Below, piece by piece: positions 1,976 through 12,907 of a stretch of DNA of 33,464 nucleotides. The notes under the pieces were generated by a model. It was not told where the DNA came from and ran no database searches. It was given only the letters and a program-made list of their open reading frames with translations. A program made the translations under genes and the position numbers. This stretch comes from Paracoccaceae bacterium (GTDB taxonomy: Bacteria > Pseudomonadota > Alphaproteobacteria > Rhodobacterales > Rhodobacteraceae). The first letter of the stretch is position 1, and each line of letters begins with the position of its first letter. The DNA is taken from the NCBI GenBank assembly GCA_026417295.1, contig JAOADN010000024.1:1-33464 (forward strand), given 5' to 3'.

Positions 1976-3250
1976 TCAGCCCCGATGGCGCCGCGCGACA
2001 CTCGCCGGGCGGCCCGGCAGCGCCATCCGCGAATCGTTGCGCGCCTTCTCGGCGATGACCCGGCCGCGCGAGATGACGCAGAGCCGGTCGGGCCGCAGCC
2101 GCACCGCCTCGGTCGGGTTGCCGGCATCGAGGATGACGAGCGATGCCAGCGCCCCCTTCCGCAGGCCGTAGTCCTTCAGCCCCATGATCGCGGCATTGGT
2201 CTCTGTCACCATGGTGAAGCAGCGCGCCATCTCGGCGGGATGCGTCATCTGCGCGACGTGCAGCCCCATGAAGGCCACATCCAGCATGTCGGCGGTGCCG
2301 AGCGGATACCAGGGGTCCAGCACGCAGTCCTGCCCCCAGCCGACGGCGATGCCGAGCGCCTGCATCTCCTTCACGCGGGTCAGCCCGCGCCGCTTGGGGA
2401 AGGTGTCGTGGCGGCCCTGGATGGTGATGTTGATGAGCGGGTTCGGGATCGCGCACATCCCCGATTCCGCCATCAGCGGCAGGAGCTTCGAGACGTAGTA
2501 GTTGTCCATCGAGTGCATCGAGGTCAGGTGGCTGCCGGCCGCCCGCGCCCCGAGGCCATGGCGCGTGACCTCGCGGGCCAGCGTCTCGACATGGCGGCTC
2601 ATCGGGTCGTCGGTCTCGTCGCAGTGCAGGTCCAGCATCAGCCCACGCTCGGCGGCGATGCGGGCAAGGTCGCGCACCGACTCCGCGCCTTCCTCCATCG
2701 TGCGCTCGAAATGCGGGATCCCGCCGACGACATCGACGCCCATGTCGAGGGCGCGGATCAGGTTCGCCCGGCCCGTCGCCGTGCGGTAGAGCCCGTCCTG
2801 CGGAAAGGCGACGAGCTGGAGGTCGATATAGGGCGCGACGCGCCGGCGGACCTCGAGCATCGCCTCGACCCCGCGCAGGTGGTCGGGCGTGGTGTCGACA
2901 TGGGTGCGGATCGCCAGAAGGCCCATCGCCGCGGCCCAGTCGCAGTAGGTCATGGCGCGATCGACCATCTCGTCCACCGTGGCGATGGCGCGCAGCTCGC
3001 CCCACAGCGCGATCCCCTCGAGCAGCGTCCCCGAGGCGTTGATGCGCGGGATCCCGTAGCTCAGCGTCGCGTCCATGTGGAAATGGGGGTCCGCGAAGGG
3101 CGGCGAGACGAGGTCGCCCGCCGCCTCGATCACCCGGCCGGCCTGGGCGGTGATCGCCGGCTCGACGGCGGCGATCCGGTCGCCCCTGACGGCGATGTCG
3201 GCGACGCGTCCGTCGGGCAGCGTGCCGCCCCTTATGAGGATGTCGAACAT
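1976..3250 (-). CDS. codA: CodA-family deaminase, probably 5-methylcytosine deaminase
   Basis: A 424-residue amidohydrolase aligning to E. coli cytosine deaminase with a constant 5-residue offset and no gaps through residue 318. Metal ligands are His56, His58 (PHFHMD), His209 (HCDE) and Asp308. Catalytic and substrate residues are Gln151 (VAFPQ), Glu212, His241 and Trp314. These equal CodA H61, H63, H214, D313, Q156, E217, H246 and W319. The key difference is Cys309 in GQDCVLDPWYP where CodA has Asp314. From memory, homologues lacking this Asp, including one from Rhodobacter sphaeroides, deaminate 5-methylcytosine to thymine. The start overlaps the upstream permease stop by 1 nt (TGATG), so it is the last gene of the importer operon. 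Cytosine or another aminopyrimidine remains possible; the CodA family itself is certain. Confidence 0.9.
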   Translation of the reverse strand: MFDILIRGGTLPDGRVADIAVRGDRIAAVEPAITAQAGRVIEAAGDLVSPPFADPHFHMDATLSYGIPRINASGTLLEGIALWGELRAIATVDEMVDRAMTYCDWAAAMGLLAIRTHVDTTPDHLRGVEAMLEVRRRVAPYIDLQLVAFPQDGLYRTATGRANLIRALDMGVDVVGGIPHFERTMEEGAESVRDLARIAAERGLMLDLHCDETDDPMSRHVETLAREVTRHGLGARAAGSHLTSMHSMDNYYVSKLLPLMAESGMCAIPNPLINITIQGRHDTFPKRRGLTRVKEMQALGIAVGWGQDCVLDPWYPLGTADMLDVAFMGLHVAQMTHPAEMARCFTMVTETNAAIMGLKDYGLRKGALASLVILDAGNPTEAVRLRPDRLCVISRGRVIAEKARNDSRMALPGRPASVARRHRG

Positions 3251-4197
3251 CAGCGTTCTCCCTTCCGCCAGGGCACCATCAGCGCCGCCGGCACCCCCGC
3301 GCGGCGCGACATCAGGACCAGGGCCAGGATCGACAGGATGTAGGGCAGCATCAGGAAGACCTGATAGGGCACCTCGCGCCCGAGCGGCGCCTGCTGCAGG
3401 CGGATCTGCAGCGCGTCGAAGGCGCCGAAGAGCAGCGCCCCGACCAGCGCCTTGCCCGGCATCCAGGCCCCGAAGACGACGAGCGCGATGCAGATCCAGC
3501 CGCGCCCGTTCACCATCTCGAAGAAGAAGGACGAGAAGGCCGAGAGCGTCAGGAAGGCACCGCCCACCGCCATCAGCCCCGATCCGGCCACCACCGCGCC
3601 CATGCGCAGCCCGATCACCGGCAGGCCCTGCGCCTCGACGGCGGCCGGGTTCTCGCCCACCGCGCGCAGCGCCAGGCCGAGCGGGGTGCGGAACAGCACG
3701 ACCGAGGTCGCCAGGACCGAGGCGAAGGCCAGGTAGGTAAGCGCGGTCTGGCTGAACAGCGCCTCGCCGAGGACCGGCAGGCGCGACAGGCCGGGCACGG
3801 GCAGGGGGGGGAAGGGCACGATCCGCGGCGGGCTCGTGACCTCGGGCAGGGCCACGCGATAGGCGAAATAGGCCGCCGAGGTGGCAAGCAGCGTGATGCC
3901 GAGGCCCACGACGTGCTGGCTGAGGCCGAAGGGCACGACCAGCGTGCCGTGCAGCAGGCCGAAGGCCATCCCCGTCAGCAGCGCGACAAGGACCCCCGTC
4001 CACAGCCCGAAGCCGAGATAGACGGTGAACCATCCGGTGAAGGCGCCGGCCACCATGATCCCCTCGATCCCGAGGTTCAGCACCCCGGCCCGCTCGCAGA
4101 TCAGCTCGCCCATCGTGGCCAGGATCAGCGGCGAGGCGATGCGCACCGCCGCCGCCCAGAAGCTGGCCTGCATCAGGATCTCGGCCAGGGCGCTCAT
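3250..4197 (-). CDS. Nucleobase/nucleoside ABC permease 2 (BMP-type system)
   Basis: A 315-residue inner-membrane permease of the RbsC-like BPD_transp_2 family, in the variant that pairs with BMP-family binding proteins. It has about eight to ten hydrophobic segments. GVLNLGIEGIMVAGAF near residues 38-53 and RAVGENPAAVEAQG near the middle are the usual signatures of the second permease in these systems. It presumably forms the channel with the product of 4194-5258. Start and stop are both coupled: ATGA overlap with the preceding permease and TGATG with the deaminase. The association with a CodA-like enzyme suggests a pyrimidine base or nucleoside as substrate. Confidence 0.92.
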   Translation of the reverse strand: MSALAEILMQASFWAAAVRIASPLILATMGELICERAGVLNLGIEGIMVAGAFTGWFTVYLGFGLWTGVLVALLTGMAFGLLHGTLVVPFGLSQHVVGLGITLLATSAAYFAYRVALPEVTSPPRIVPFPPLPVPGLSRLPVLGEALFSQTALTYLAFASVLATSVVLFRTPLGLALRAVGENPAAVEAQGLPVIGLRMGAVVAGSGLMAVGGAFLTLSAFSSFFFEMVNGRGWICIALVVFGAWMPGKALVGALLFGAFDALQIRLQQAPLGREVPYQVFLMLPYILSILALVLMSRRAGVPAALMVPWRKGER

Positions 4198-5258
4198 CCG
4201 CGCACCACCCGGAACCGCGTGAGCTGCAGCGCCAGAACCATGAACAGCAGCGCCGTCGCCAGCAGCAGGTCGGCAATGTAGGTGGGAACCCCGGCCGACC
4301 GGCTCATCGCATCGGCCCCGACGAAGACCCCGGCCACGAAGACGGCCGCCACCACCACGCCCAGCGGATGCAGCAGCGCCAGCATCGCGACGATGATGCC
4401 CGTGTAGCCGTAGCCCGGCGACAGGTCGAGCGTCAGGTTCCCCTTCAGCCCCGCCACTTCGGAGAAGCCGGCCAGCGCCGCCAGCCCCCCCGAGAGCAGC
4501 GCGGTGCGCACAAGGACGCGGTTGACCGGCATCCCGGCGAAGCGCGCCGCCGCGGCGTTCCGGCCGACGGCGCGCATCTCGAAGCCCAGGGTCGTGCGCG
4601 TCTGGATCACCCAGACCGCGACGGCGGCGATCAGCGCCAGCCCGAATCCCCAGTGCAGGCGCAGCCCCTCGACGATGCGCGGCAGCCGCGCGGCGCGGTC
4701 GAGCGGGGGGGATTTCGGCCAGCCCATTCCGGCCGGGTCCTTGAGCGGCCCCTCGAGCAGGAGCGAGATGAACAGGAGCACCACGAAGTTCAGCAGCAGC
4801 GTCGTCACCACCTCGTCCACCCCCGCCCGCGTCTTCAGGATCACCGGGCCGAGCAGCACCAGCGCGCCCGCGGCCACCGCGGCCAGCGCCATCAGCGCCA
4901 GGAGCGCCGGCTTCGGCAGGGCCAGCGCCCAGCCGCCGGCCAGGCCGGTGCCGATCAGCACCGTGACCAGCGCCCCGGCATAGAGCTGCGCCTCGGCCCC
5001 GATGTTCCACAGCCGCGCGCGGAAGGCCACGGCGACCGCCAGCCCGGTGAAGATCAGGGGCGTCGCGCGGTTCAGCGTCTCGAGGATGGCAAAGCGCGAG
5101 CCGGCCGCGCCGGTGGCGATCTGGCCCAGGGTCGCCAGCGGGTCGGCCCCGGCGATGGCCGCAAGTCCGGCGCCGGCCAGCGCCGTCAGGACCAGCGCCA
5201 GGGCGGGCAGGCCGATGCGGCGGACGAGGCCGGGATCGGCGACGGGCTCAAGGCGCAT
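4194..5258 (-). CDS. Nucleobase/nucleoside ABC permease 1 (BMP-type system)
   Basis: A 354-residue inner-membrane permease, first of the pair. After a short charged N-terminus it has a hydrophobic helix, then the family segments PLIFTGLAVAVAFRARLWNIG and AEAQLYAGAL, and later RAVGRNAAAARFAGM. Start ATG at 5258 follows a GGGGAGAGGG ribosome site, and the frame further upstream shows no family sequence. It lies 41 nt after the ATPase stop, the only non-overlapping junction in the operon, and overlaps the next permease by 4 nt (ATGA). Nucleobase or nucleoside specificity is inferred from the operon, not from this sequence. Confidence 0.92.
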   Translation of the reverse strand: MRLEPVADPGLVRRIGLPALALVLTALAGAGLAAIAGADPLATLGQIATGAAGSRFAILETLNRATPLIFTGLAVAVAFRARLWNIGAEAQLYAGALVTVLIGTGLAGGWALALPKPALLALMALAAVAAGALVLLGPVILKTRAGVDEVVTTLLLNFVVLLFISLLLEGPLKDPAGMGWPKSPPLDRAARLPRIVEGLRLHWGFGLALIAAVAVWVIQTRTTLGFEMRAVGRNAAAARFAGMPVNRVLVRTALLSGGLAALAGFSEVAGLKGNLTLDLSPGYGYTGIIVAMLALLHPLGVVVAAVFVAGVFVGADAMSRSAGVPTYIADLLLATALLFMVLALQLTRFRVVRG

Positions 5259-5299
5259 GGCCGCCCTCTCCCCGCCCGCGGCGGGCCCTGCGCAGCGCC

Positions 5300-6859
5300 T
5301 CACGCGGCATCGGCATCCTCCTCCCCGAATCCGTGGCCCGCCATCCACAGGCCCAGTTCCGCCGGCGTCATCGTCCCGCGCGGGAAGGCCGGCGACAGGC
5401 GCCCTGCCGAAATGACGTGGATGACGTCCGACAGGCCCATGACCTCGTCGAGGTCCTCCGAGATCAGCAGCACCGCCGCCCCGCCGTCGCGCGCCGCCAC
5501 GAGGCGCGACTGGACATAGGCGATGGCGCCGACATCCAGCCCGCGCACCGGCTGGTTGGCCAGGATCACCCGCGGCCGTGCGGCCAGCGCCCGGCCGAGG
5601 ATCAGCTTCTGCATGTTGCCCCCCGAGAGCAGGCGCATCGGCGCCTCGGGACCCGGGCAGCGCACGTCGTAATCGGCGATCAGGCCGGCGGCGAAGGCGC
5701 GCGCCCGCCGCCAGTCCATCCAGCCCCGCCGGCTGAAGGGCGGGTCGCGATAGGCCTCGAGCACGGCGTTCTCGGTCAGCGTGAAGTCGCCCACCGCCCC
5801 CGCGCCGTGGCGGTCCTCGGGGATGCGCGCCACCCCCGCGGCCAAGGCCGCGCGCGGCGACCAGTCCGCACCCGCGGCCCGGCCGTCCAGAAGAAGGCGC
5901 CCCGCGGCCGGCCGCGCGAGCCCGCCGACCAGCGCCGCCAGCGTCGCCTGCCCGTTGCCCGAGACCCCGGCGATGCCGGTGATCCGCCCCGCCCGCAACT
6001 CCAGCGAAACCCCGCGCAGGCCGGTGCGCCCGCCCTCTGCGGGGGCCGTCACGTCCTCAAGCGCCATCAGCACCGCCCCGGCCTCGCGCGGGGCGACGCG
6101 CGCCTCGGGCACCGCCGCGCCCACCATCATCGCCGCCAGCCGCGCGCGGTCGGTGTCGCGGGCGGCGACCTCGCCGGCCACCCGGCCCTGACGGAGAACG
6201 ACGATGCGGTCGGCGATCGCCATCACCTCGGCCAGCTTGTGGCTGATGAAGATCACCGACAGCCCGTCGGCCACCATGCGCCGCAGCGTCGCGAACAGCG
6301 CCTCGGATTCCTGCGGGGTCAGCACCGCCGTCGGCTCGTCGAGGATCAGGATGCGCGCATCGCGGTAGAGCGCCTTCAGGATCTCGACCCGCTGGCGCTC
6401 GCCCACGGACAGCGCCCCCACCCGCGCGTCGGGGTGCACGGCAAGGCCGAAGTCGCGCGACAGCGCCTCGACCCGCGCCCGGGCCGCGGCCCGGCCCAGA
6501 CGCGGCGCCAGAAGCGGCACGGTCCCGATCAGGATGTTGTCGAGGACCGTCAGGTTGTCGGCCAGGGTGAAATGCTGGTGGACCATGCCGACGCCCGCCG
6601 CGATCGCCGCCCGCGGATGGCCGTGGGGCAGCGCCCGTCCCATCACCTCGACGGTTCCGGCGTCGGGCGTGTAGTGGCCGAACAGGACGTTCATCAGCGT
6701 CGTCTTGCCGGCGCCGTTCTCGCCCAGCAGGGCCACGACCTCGCCCCGCGCGAGCGCCAGCGAGATGCCATCGTTGGCCAGGAGCGGGCCGAACCGCTTG
6801 GTGATGCCGTCGAGGCGCAGGACGGGCCCGTCCCGCGCCTCCGCCGCGCCTGCCGTCAC
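5300..6859 (-). CDS. Double-domain ABC ATPase of the BMP-type importer
   Basis: A 519-residue cytoplasmic ATPase with two fused nucleotide-binding domains, as in ribose and nucleoside importers. Domain 1 has Walker A GENGAGKTT (46-54), signature LSVGERQRVEI and Walker B ILILDEPTAVL. Domain 2 has the degenerate P-loop GVSGNGQAT, signature LSGGNMQKLILG and the modified Walker B VILANQPVRGLDVGA, where Asn-Gln replaces the usual Asp-Glu. This asymmetry is normal for the family, where domain 2 is often weakly catalytic. I chose GTG at 6859, which overlaps the TGA of the binding-protein gene (GTGA). The frame is open far upstream, but that stretch is a shadow of the binding-protein gene and not a fusion. 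Confidence 0.93.
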   Translation of the reverse strand: MTAGAAEARDGPVLRLDGITKRFGPLLANDGISLALARGEVVALLGENGAGKTTLMNVLFGHYTPDAGTVEVMGRALPHGHPRAAIAAGVGMVHQHFTLADNLTVLDNILIGTVPLLAPRLGRAAARARVEALSRDFGLAVHPDARVGALSVGERQRVEILKALYRDARILILDEPTAVLTPQESEALFATLRRMVADGLSVIFISHKLAEVMAIADRIVVLRQGRVAGEVAARDTDRARLAAMMVGAAVPEARVAPREAGAVLMALEDVTAPAEGGRTGLRGVSLELRAGRITGIAGVSGNGQATLAALVGGLARPAAGRLLLDGRAAGADWSPRAALAAGVARIPEDRHGAGAVGDFTLTENAVLEAYRDPPFSRRGWMDWRRARAFAAGLIADYDVRCPGPEAPMRLLSGGNMQKLILGRALAARPRVILANQPVRGLDVGAIAYVQSRLVAARDGGAAVLLISEDLDEVMGLSDVIHVISAGRLSPAFPRGTMTPAELGLWMAGHGFGEEDADAA

Positions 6860-7875
6860 GACGACTTCGGCTCGCCGTCGTTGATCTCGACGGTGAAGGA
6901 CCCGTCCTTGATCGCGGCCTCGCGGGCCTTCATCAGCTCCACCGCCTCGGCCGGGACCTTGCCCTCGAAGGTGCCGAGCGGCGAGACCGAGCAGCCGCCG
7001 TTCTTCATGAAGGAATAGACGCCGTAGTCGGCCGCCTTGAAGGTGCCGCCCTTGACCGCGGCGATGGCGGCATCGAGCGTCGGCTCGAAGTGCCACAGCG
7101 CCGAGACGACGACCGTCTCGGGATAGTCGGGCTGGGTGTCGATGACGTTGCCGATCGACAGGACCCCCTTCTCCTTCGCCGCGTCGCTGACGCCGAAGCG
7201 TTCGGCATACATGACGTCCGCGCCCGCCTCGATCATCGCGAAGGCCGTCTCCTTGGCCTTGGGCGGATCGAACCACGAGCCGATGAACGAGACCTGGAAG
7301 GACGCATCCTTGCGCGTCTCGGCCACCCCCGCCATGAAGGCGTTCATCAGCCGGTTCACCTCGGGGATCGGGAACCCGCCGACCATCCCGAACTTGCCCG
7401 TCTTGGTCATGGATCCGGCAATGATTCCAGTCAGATACGATGCGTCCTGAATGTAGTTGTCGAAGACGGCGAGATTGGGATTGGCCGCTTCGTCGGGCAT
7501 GAAGGACGATCCCAGCAGGAAGGCCGTGTCCGGATAGTCGGCGACGACCTCGCGCGCCTCCTGCTCGGCCCCGAAGATCTCGCCCACGATCAGGCCGGCG
7601 CCGCCCTCGGCATATTCGCGCAGGACGCGCGGATAATCCGTGTTGGCGGTGTTCTCGGTGAAGGTGTAGTCGATCTCGCCCCTCTCCACCGCGGCCAGCG
7701 CCGCCTTGTGGATGCGGCTCACCCACTGCTGCTCGACCGGCACGGTGTAGATTCCCGCCACCTTGAGCTTGTCCTGGGCAAGCGCCGGCCGGCCGAGGCC
7801 CGCCAAGGCGAGCGTTGCGCCCGAGGCGCCCAGAAGGCGGCGGCGCGTCAGGCCCGGACGATGGATCTGTGTCAT
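6856..7875 (-). CDS. BMP-family nucleoside/nucleobase-binding lipoprotein-like protein, Tat-exported
   Basis: Periplasmic binding protein of the basic membrane protein (PnrA-like) family, 339 residues from ATG 7875. The N-terminus HRPGLTRRRLLGASGATLALAG is a twin-arginine signal with cleavage near ALAQD; there is no lipobox Cys. Family features are KVAGIYTVPVEQQWVS, the segment FTENTANTDYPRVLREYAEGG, and AERFGVSDAAKEKG. BMP proteins usually bind nucleosides or bases. Start choice: GGGGGA touches the ATG at 7881 but is 6 nt from the in-frame ATG at 7875, so I prefer 7875. It is first in the operon. Residues 132-159 (7401-7480) use unusually AT-rich codons. With the downstream deaminase the likely ligand is a modified pyrimidine, by inference. 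Confidence 0.9.
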   Translation of the reverse strand: MTQIHRPGLTRRRLLGASGATLALAGLGRPALAQDKLKVAGIYTVPVEQQWVSRIHKAALAAVERGEIDYTFTENTANTDYPRVLREYAEGGAGLIVGEIFGAEQEAREVVADYPDTAFLLGSSFMPDEAANPNLAVFDNYIQDASYLTGIIAGSMTKTGKFGMVGGFPIPEVNRLMNAFMAGVAETRKDASFQVSFIGSWFDPPKAKETAFAMIEAGADVMYAERFGVSDAAKEKGVLSIGNVIDTQPDYPETVVVSALWHFEPTLDAAIAAVKGGTFKAADYGVYSFMKNGGCSVSPLGTFEGKVPAEAVELMKAREAAIKDGSFTVEINDGEPKSS

Positions 7876-7990
7876 CTTCATTCCCCCGTTGGCTGGTTGC
7901 GTGTTTTGACCAATCGGTAAACCCGATTTTCCGCGCCGACAATTGGAATCGAACGGCCCTGCGCGCGGCCGCGGCTGGCCCGCGGCGCGG

Positions 7991-12065: not shown

Positions 12066-12907
12066 ACGCGCCGCGCATTGCCCGCGTAGAAGGCCCGCAG
12101 GTCGGCCTCGGGCACCCCGGCGAAATGCCGGTCCAGCAGGTCGATCCAGCGCCGCGGGCTTACCGCCTGGGTGCAGACCGGCCAGTCAAAGGCAAAGATC
12201 ATCCTATTGAAACCAAATACTTCCACGACCTCGTCAATGTAAAACCTCAGGTCGTCCTCGGTCCAGGCCGCGTGATCGGCCTCGACCGGCAGGTCCGACA
12301 GCTTGCACCAGGTGTCGGGGTTCGCCTCGAAGGCGCGCAGGTGGCGCGCCCAGGGCTCCTGCAGCCGGTCCCGGATCGGCGGCTTGCCCGCATGGTCAAG
12401 GACCAGCCGCACCCCCTCGACCGCGCCCGCCAGCGAAGCCGCCCGGTCCATCTGGCTGTGATGCACGTTGACCTCGAACGAGAAGTCGTAGTCGCGCAGC
12501 ATCTGCACGCCCTTCTGGAAATCCGGGCGCAGGGCGAAGTCGGGATCGGGCTGGAACTCGATCATCCGGCGGATGCCGCGCACCATCGGGTGGCGGTCGC
12601 GCAGGTGGTCGAGGAAGGGCCGCACGTCCTCGCCATCCTCCAGCGACGCCTGGGCGACGATCGCCTTCAGGCGCGGCTCCGCGCGCGCCGCGCGCTCGAC
12701 ATGGCGCACCTCGTTCAGGAACTCGCCGCGGTCGACGAAGCACTCGACGAAGACCATCGCCTCGATGGCGATGCCGCCCGTGTCCTCGGCATAGTCGGCC
12801 AGGTCGAAGACCCGCCGCATCGCGGCGTTCCCGGCCTGCCAGCCGATGCGGATCGCCCGCGGGTCCCAGATGTGCAGGTGGGCGTCGATGATCGGGAAAT
12901 CGGGCAT
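12050..12907 (-). CDS. Amidohydrolase-2 family sugar lactonase (L-fucono/L-rhamnono-lactonase type)
   Basis: A 285-residue TIM-barrel hydrolase of the COG3618 group, which includes L-fucono-1,5-lactonase. It opens a sugar lactone to the aldonate. Visible motifs are IIDAHLHIWDP (HxH metal pair, residues 5-15), VHHSQMDR, VLDHAGKPP and the C-terminal metal Asp in FAFDWPV. ATG 12907 follows GGAGG by 9 nt. It is divergent from the aldose dehydrogenase, the preceding step of the proposed route, across a 109-bp promoter region. Codons for residues 220-243 (12181-12250) are AT-rich, only about 43% GC by my count. Exact sugar unknown; a 4-carboxymuconolactone- or dicarboxylate-type hydrolase is less likely given the neighbours. 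Confidence 0.82.
   Translation of the reverse strand: MPDFPIIDAHLHIWDPRAIRIGWQAGNAAMRRVFDLADYAEDTGGIAIEAMVFVECFVDRGEFLNEVRHVERAARAEPRLKAIVAQASLEDGEDVRPFLDHLRDRHPMVRGIRRMIEFQPDPDFALRPDFQKGVQMLRDYDFSFEVNVHHSQMDRAASLAGAVEGVRLVLDHAGKPPIRDRLQEPWARHLRAFEANPDTWCKLSDLPVEADHAAWTEDDLRFYIDEVVEVFGFNRMIFAFDWPVCTQAVSPRRWIDLLDRHFAGVPEADLRAFYAGNARRVYRLG

Follow-up and report, generated by a model that had tools for sequence, protein, structure and literature searches.

A BMP-type ABC importer joined to a CodA-type deaminase in a Paracoccaceae bacterium: a candidate operon for uptake and deamination of free pyrimidine bases

Which compound is carried by an ATP-binding cassette (ABC) importer of the BMP type when its genes run into a gene for a CodA-type deaminase? 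The question is raised by a contig of a Paracoccaceae bacterium (JAOADN010000024.1, our C118; assembly GCA_026417295.1), whose 33,464 nucleotides (nt) were analyzed as a whole and are called the window here. The contig belongs to a metagenome-assembled genome (MAG) of 2.73 Mb in 201 contigs that is 76.7% complete; judged from the nearest relatives of its CodA, the genome falls in Rhodobacteraceae or a closely related group. Five genes on its minus strand (1976-7881) encode a BMP binding protein, an ATPase, two permeases and the deaminase. The first-pass annotation, made from the sequence alone, had read them as an operon dedicated to 5-methylcytosine. Our analysis favors an operon that would import and deaminate a free pyrimidine base for salvage or degradation under RutR-like control. 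Its likeliest substrate is cytosine, to which 5-methylcytosine may plausibly be added; we give this reading a probability of about 0.74.

All parts of the five-gene arrangement described earlier were confirmed by family, and the junctions between them are tight. The first gene (6856-7881, minus strand, as are all five) encodes a periplasmic substrate-binding protein of 341 amino acids from the BMP family (PF02608), with an AtzT-like predicted fold, a pocket signature of its own and a leader that looks twin-arginine-like by eye. Its first ATG lies at 7881; position 7875, given previously as the end of the operon, corresponds to the second in-frame ATG. There follow a double-domain ABC ATPase with a GTG start and two ABC_tran stretches (5300-6859), permease A (4194-5258) and permease B (3250-4197), both assigned by Pfam to BPD_transp_2 (PF02653), and the deaminase of the PRK07572 subfamily (1976-3250). 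A PF02608 binding protein, a double ATPase and two PF02653 permeases together make up a BMP/PnrA-type ABC importer. The BMP stop and the ATPase start overlap by 4 nt (GTGA), the two permease genes by 4 nt (ATGA), and permease B and CodA by 1 nt (TGATG). Translational coupling, as proposed for the operon, is thus matched by overlaps of that kind at three of the four junctions and not at the fourth, where the sole gap of the operon (41 nt) separates the ATPase gene from that of permease A. Among 80 named relatives, 48 have the operon in full, so it is not a chance arrangement, and the conservation that the first-pass annotation named as a check is borne out.

The deaminase scored 734.3 bits against the PRK07572 model (NF005748; cut-off 438) and 409.5 bits against the E. 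coli-type CodA model (NF006685, PRK09230), which is below the cut-off of 483. Its alignment with E. coli CodA (1k6w) has no gaps over query residues 37-402 and a constant offset of 5 in chain numbering. The metal-binding and catalytic set of CodA-type enzymes (His61, His63, His214, Gln156, Glu217, His246 and Asp313 in E. coli), whose assigned roles we in part presume, is present in full, and residues H56, H58, Q151, H209, E212, H241, D308 and W314 of the window enzyme are unchanged across nine aligned sequences including E. coli CodA. The alignment agrees with the earlier observation that the catalytic residues are kept while Cys309 (TGC codon at 2324-2326, minus strand) stands where E. coli CodA has Asp314 (Asp315 counting Met). 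A small residue at this position is a feature of 5-methylcytosine deaminases, and a Rhodobacter sphaeroides enzyme is reported to be active on 5-methylcytosine. According to passages of PMC6186785, E. coli CodA makes essentially no use of 5-methylcytosine, its Asp-to-Ala mutant can use this base (Hitchcock 2014, as cited there), and the Klebsiella 5-methylcytosine deaminase Kpn00632 carries Ser at the position of the blocking Asp. Since Cys309 replaces the Asp by which the 5-methyl group is excluded, it is plausible on steric grounds that the window enzyme may accept 5-methylcytosine.

Cys309 was also considered as an oddity of the window locus, and this idea was rejected because the Cys is found throughout the subfamily. 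It occupies the Asp314 position in 80 of 80 named relatives and in 181 of 182 pooled PRK07572 loci, the remaining one (L107) having a CodA that is split there; the named loci and the sampled genomes overlap in species, and this pool, like those of 122 operons and 106 upstream regions used below, is redundant. The E. coli-type CodA loci are divided evenly between Asp (22 of 44) and Ser (22 of 44). In a 69-row tree, for which every second of 41 Asp/Ser loci was taken, sequences with Asp, Ser and Cys group separately (support 97, 94 and 100, respectively), and the Ser group has one very long branch (L224). Kpn00632 (as described in passages of PMC6186785), which itself lies outside this tree, shares with the window enzyme the loss of the blocking Asp but has Ser rather than Cys, and Ser and Cys sequences are separate groups. 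As the Cys is fixed across PRK07572 with or without an importer, it marks the subfamily and not the operon.

The coupling of importer and enzyme is real, widespread and specific. The sample consisted of 398 genomes, taken evenly across the phylum, in which we scored presence or absence per genome from the first look of each search. The PRK07572 model separated them cleanly: 47 genomes scored at least 734 bits, and the other matches listed no more than 500; with the window BMP protein as query, 36 genomes had a match of at least 45% identity and the other matches listed did not exceed 36%. All 36 importer genomes fall within the 47 that have Cys-CodA, and the importer is found in 0 of the 351 others (Fisher p about 8e-42, a value that, like our binomial ones, takes no account of relatedness), which upholds the link between CodA and importer drawn in the first-pass annotation. 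The BMP gene lies far from CodA in seven or more of the 36 (six genomes of genus g86, plus G381, where the distance is 35 kb), so the co-occurrence does not reflect linkage alone. On a Sinorhizobium fredii NGR234 plasmid (L264), a complete importer of the subfamily, with a BMP protein 70% identical to that of the window, was seen with CodA elsewhere on the same plasmid.

A linked importer, defined as BMP protein plus both permeases within 9.5 kb on the strand of CodA, occurs at 24 of 47 phylum-sample loci, 49 of 54 order-sample loci (the window not counted) and 48 of 80 named loci, and several of the loci scored without one sit at contig ends. For these neighbor counts, the 4.3-kb loci L143-L172 were replaced by wide versions or by earlier loci of the same genomes. 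None of the 41 Asp/Ser loci has a linked importer; at one Ser locus (L214), the opposite strand encodes a BMP importer that is only distantly related (about 32% identity). That loss of the Asp alone predicts the importer was likewise rejected, given 0 linked importers at 20 Ser loci. The CodB permease stands near 26 of the 41 Asp/Ser loci and near 0 of 46 Cys loci in the phylum sample, and the neighbors of the window CodA are ABC genes. The window operon therefore resembles E. coli codBA in that a transporter gene is tightly joined to a deaminase with identical catalytic residues, but differs from it in having a BMP-type ABC importer instead of CodB, Cys instead of Asp at position 314, and a place in a separate clade with support of 100. 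Within the Cys clade, importer presence switches at least nine times in the tree, and in the 122 linked operons CodA is the last gene in 107 and the first in 15, which indicates that the association outlives rearrangement. A narrow search of the open-licence literature found no report of a link between CodA and a BMP importer.

Several further arrangements were seen around Cys-CodA. An amidase-signature gene lies between the BMP and ATPase genes in two arrangements (L090, L093, L107, L141, L231 and L233). An open reading frame (ORF) encoding an EamA-type transporter lies downstream of Cys-CodA in one locus (L064:10342-11304), with related ORFs in 21 similar loci, and many of these 22 loci are from Mesorhizobium without a linked BMP importer. 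Another kind of ABC importer precedes Cys-CodA in L092 (SBP_bac_8 binding protein) and L104 (BPD_transp_1 permease). On an Agrobacterium plasmid, a second BMP importer, another amidohydrolase and Rieske-type oxygenase genes adjoin the CodA operon (L231:11129-15257).

Gene neighbors suggest what the enzyme makes. On three Azospirillum plasmids, genes for a GTP cyclohydrolase II (URC1-like), URC4 and upp lie directly upstream of the importer-CodA operon. The same URC1-URC4-upp array precedes the operon at L238, a URC1 homolog precedes it on a Cupriavidus plasmid, and upp precedes it in further genomes. In Cupriavidus metallidurans CH34 (L234) and genome G457 (L237), URC1, URC4 and upp stand beside Cys-CodA with no importer nearby, and a search of the whole G457 genome with the BMP protein did not find the importer. 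Uracil phosphoribosyltransferase is encoded within 9.5 kb of 6 of 46 phylum-sample Cys loci, two of which also have URC1 and URC4. In yeast, URC genes serve uracil degradation (passages of PMC7530994). Because these neighbors handle uracil, the arrangement would fit an enzyme that forms uracil and hence acts on cytosine. PF07958, a model aimed at URC genes, matched 0 of 149 genomes of the window's order, and since it matched no control genome either, this count does not show absence. The window genome has both upp and dihydropyrimidinase. The dihydropyrimidinase route can take thymine too, so the product of 5-methylcytosine could enter it and some use of 5-methylcytosine is possible. Nevertheless, an operon dedicated to 5-methylcytosine, with cytosine not its main natural substrate, appears unlikely to us: the steric argument and the Ala and Ser precedents speak for it, but the Cys is fixed in PRK07572 irrespective of neighbors, homologous operons are found downstream of upp and URC genes, and 16 of 20 sampled loci with Ser-bearing CodA have the cytosine permease CodB close by. 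The claim of dedication was thus not sustained, and ordinary cytosine has at least as much evidence in its favor as 5-methylcytosine.

A second line of evidence for pyrimidine metabolism comes from the DNA upstream of the operon. These upstream regions share a palindrome close to TTGACCAnnTGGTCAA, which we take to be the RutR operator consensus. In the window, the operator-like palindrome TTGACCAATCGGTAAA (7906-7921, not assigned to a strand) stands 24 bases before the BMP ATG and agrees with this assumed consensus at 12 of 14 positions. At least 11 of 14 positions were matched in 68 of 106 upstream regions (two of 108 regions, shorter than 200 nt, had been dropped). Among 2120 windows taken at random from these loci, 3.2% reached this level, as did 1.5% of 2120 sequences shuffled by permuting dinucleotide blocks. 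The window holds four matches with at most three mismatches, where 0.23 are expected. One of them, at 12384-12399, is a second RutR-like motif with two mismatches, downstream of zinc-importer genes. The motif was drawn up from the operon's own upstream regions, so its matches before CodA operons are partly circular; those before dihydropyrimidinase genes are not. In the whole genome, a relaxed pattern with at most one mismatch gave six sites (four when it was read backwards as a control), of which the window site is the only exact one, four lie elsewhere, and one with a single mismatch (C136:18436) lies 2.45 kb upstream of the dihydropyrimidinase gene. The exact pattern TTKACCRNNYGGTMAA was found at 33 sites in 22 of 27 operon-bearing relatives. 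Nine of the sites precede the importer-CodA operon and eight lie elsewhere; the other 16 come from as many genomes, each with a single site upstream of dihydropyrimidinase, at 7.0 kb in one genome and no more than 3.6 kb away in 15. None of the 25 gene-associated sites is on the downstream side, and chance alone would place about 0.04 sites in the 4 kb preceding dihydropyrimidinase. This independent occurrence of the motif links the operon with pyrimidine degradation. The E. coli RutR regulon, as we understand it, also has a palindrome like this one before pyrimidine catabolism genes; there it precedes rutA-G, whereas here it precedes the importer-deaminase operon and dihydropyrimidinase, with a RutR-like protein as candidate regulator only.

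The binding protein also bears on the question of the cargo. Its nearest solved relatives by sequence are AtzT of the AtzSTUVW system (about 27% identity) and Brucella 3s99, and both also come first by E-value in a fold search with the BMP model (mean predicted local distance difference test score, pLDDT, 89.6; alignment of 14 sequences). Passages of PMC6834077 describe AtzT as solved with guanine and 3s99 as modeled with adenine. In 122 of 122 CodA-linked BMP proteins, the pocket has Trp45, Glu165, Leu169, a gap at 218 and Glu220 (AtzT numbering); position 194 holds Trp in 111 proteins and Phe in the remaining 11; position 97 is variable, with Ser97 in 16. Compared with the AtzT pocket (Tyr45, Ser97, Glu165, Trp194, Asn218, Asn220), the aromatic pair and Glu165 are kept, but Leu, the gap and Glu replace Asn169, Asn218 and Asn220 in every case, and the partner enzyme is CodA instead of triazine enzymes. 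Such a conserved change in the pocket would suit a smaller base. The two other BMP importers of the genome (L121, L122) have pockets unlike W45-E165-L169-gap218-E220. One adjoins xanthine-dehydrogenase-like genes and matches 3s99 at all eight pocket positions, and the other adjoins a purine nucleoside phosphorylase-like gene (both neighbors named by eye), so each importer seems to be joined to an enzyme for its own cargo.

Two other kinds of cargo have to be weighed against a pyrimidine base, and we regard them as equally improbable, slightly more so than dedication to 5-methylcytosine. The importer and deaminase might handle another N-heterocycle (isocytosine, an s-triazine, a creatinine-like compound) or a wide mix. 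AtzT, the nearest BMP relative, binds ammeline and 2-hydroxyatrazine (passages of PMC6834077), AtzC and TrzC are distantly related to CodA (passages of PMC12828455), and the amidase of some arrangements has below-cut-off matches to AtzE-like and allophanate-hydrolase models. However, phmmer gave the deaminase about 350 bits to E. coli CodA versus 146 to AtzC, Glu165 is the only polar residue of the AtzT pocket kept throughout, and the shared motif connects the operon with dihydropyrimidinase. Alternatively, pyrimidine nucleosides such as cytidine or 5-methyl-deoxycytidine could be imported, with CodA acting after intracellular cleavage, since the solved BMP proteins PnrA, BmpD and Lbp are nucleoside-bound. 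Such a route sits poorly with the window operon, which has no nucleoside hydrolase or phosphorylase, with the phosphorylase-like gene next to another BMP importer of the genome, and with the first rank of base-bound AtzT by sequence and fold E-value.

Import and deamination of a free pyrimidine base also has evidence that weighs against it. Guanosine-bound Lbp was close behind 3s99 in the fold search and had the higher TM-score by target (0.84 vs 0.78). AtzT takes cytosine only at 800 µM, compared with 0.11 µM for guanine (passages of PMC6834077), and a cytosine ligand therefore rests on the changed pocket. An amidase is carried by 16 of the 122 linked operons, and 11 of the 47 Cys-CodA genomes have no importer, which means that the enzyme does not need it. 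The upp/URC neighbors are a minority, upp is also near 2 of 41 Asp/Ser loci, and no such neighbors were found at the fetched Rhodobacterales loci. Regarding control, the backward control of TTKACCRNNYGGTMAA gave 17 sites compared with 33, and the exact motif precedes the operon in only 9 of the 27 relatives and is found nowhere in five. The RutR consensus is itself our assumption. In the 76.7% complete MAG, the best RutR match reached 48.9 bits (cut-off 368), and no match above the cut-off was found for dihydropyrimidine dehydrogenase PRK08318.

The surroundings of the operon in the window include a KDO-transferase gene downstream and a FUR-family gene upstream, where a divergent ZnuA-type zinc importer is also encoded. 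Three perfect palindromes with arms of 13, 12 and 15 nt, abutting or slightly overlapping, lie between CodA and the KDO-transferase gene (1899-1968).

Taken as a pathway for a free pyrimidine base, these features suggest that the periplasmic BMP protein would catch cytosine, and perhaps 5-methylcytosine, that the ATPase and two permeases would import it, and that the coupled CodA-type enzyme would deaminate it to uracil (or thymine). The flux would then run to salvage by uracil phosphoribosyltransferase or to degradation, either reductively via dihydropyrimidinase or, in some relatives, by the URC route. A TetR-type, RutR-like repressor sensing the product would probably control the importer-deaminase and dihydropyrimidinase operons together. 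What is new here is an importer-coupled version of a known transporter-plus-CodA theme, and the shared motif. We also put forward a more specific and tentative proposal, to which we give somewhat less than even odds: the BMP subfamily with W45-E165-L169-E220 may be an ABC importer of free amino-pyrimidine bases with high affinity for cytosine and 5-methylcytosine and, with Cys-CodA and a RutR-like repressor, may form a regulon that feeds soil and marine bacteria on bases of decaying DNA, methylated ones included. To our knowledge, an ABC-type importer for such bases would be the first of its kind. The annotated plasmids examined label these proteins only as 'BMP family protein' and 'amidohydrolase family protein'. 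Co-occurrence, pocket signature and motif give this importer subfamily, present in 36 of 398 genomes, a testable substrate class within pyrimidine nitrogen scavenging, and if 5-methylcytosine is also taken, the operon would provide a recycling route for the modified base of methylated DNA.

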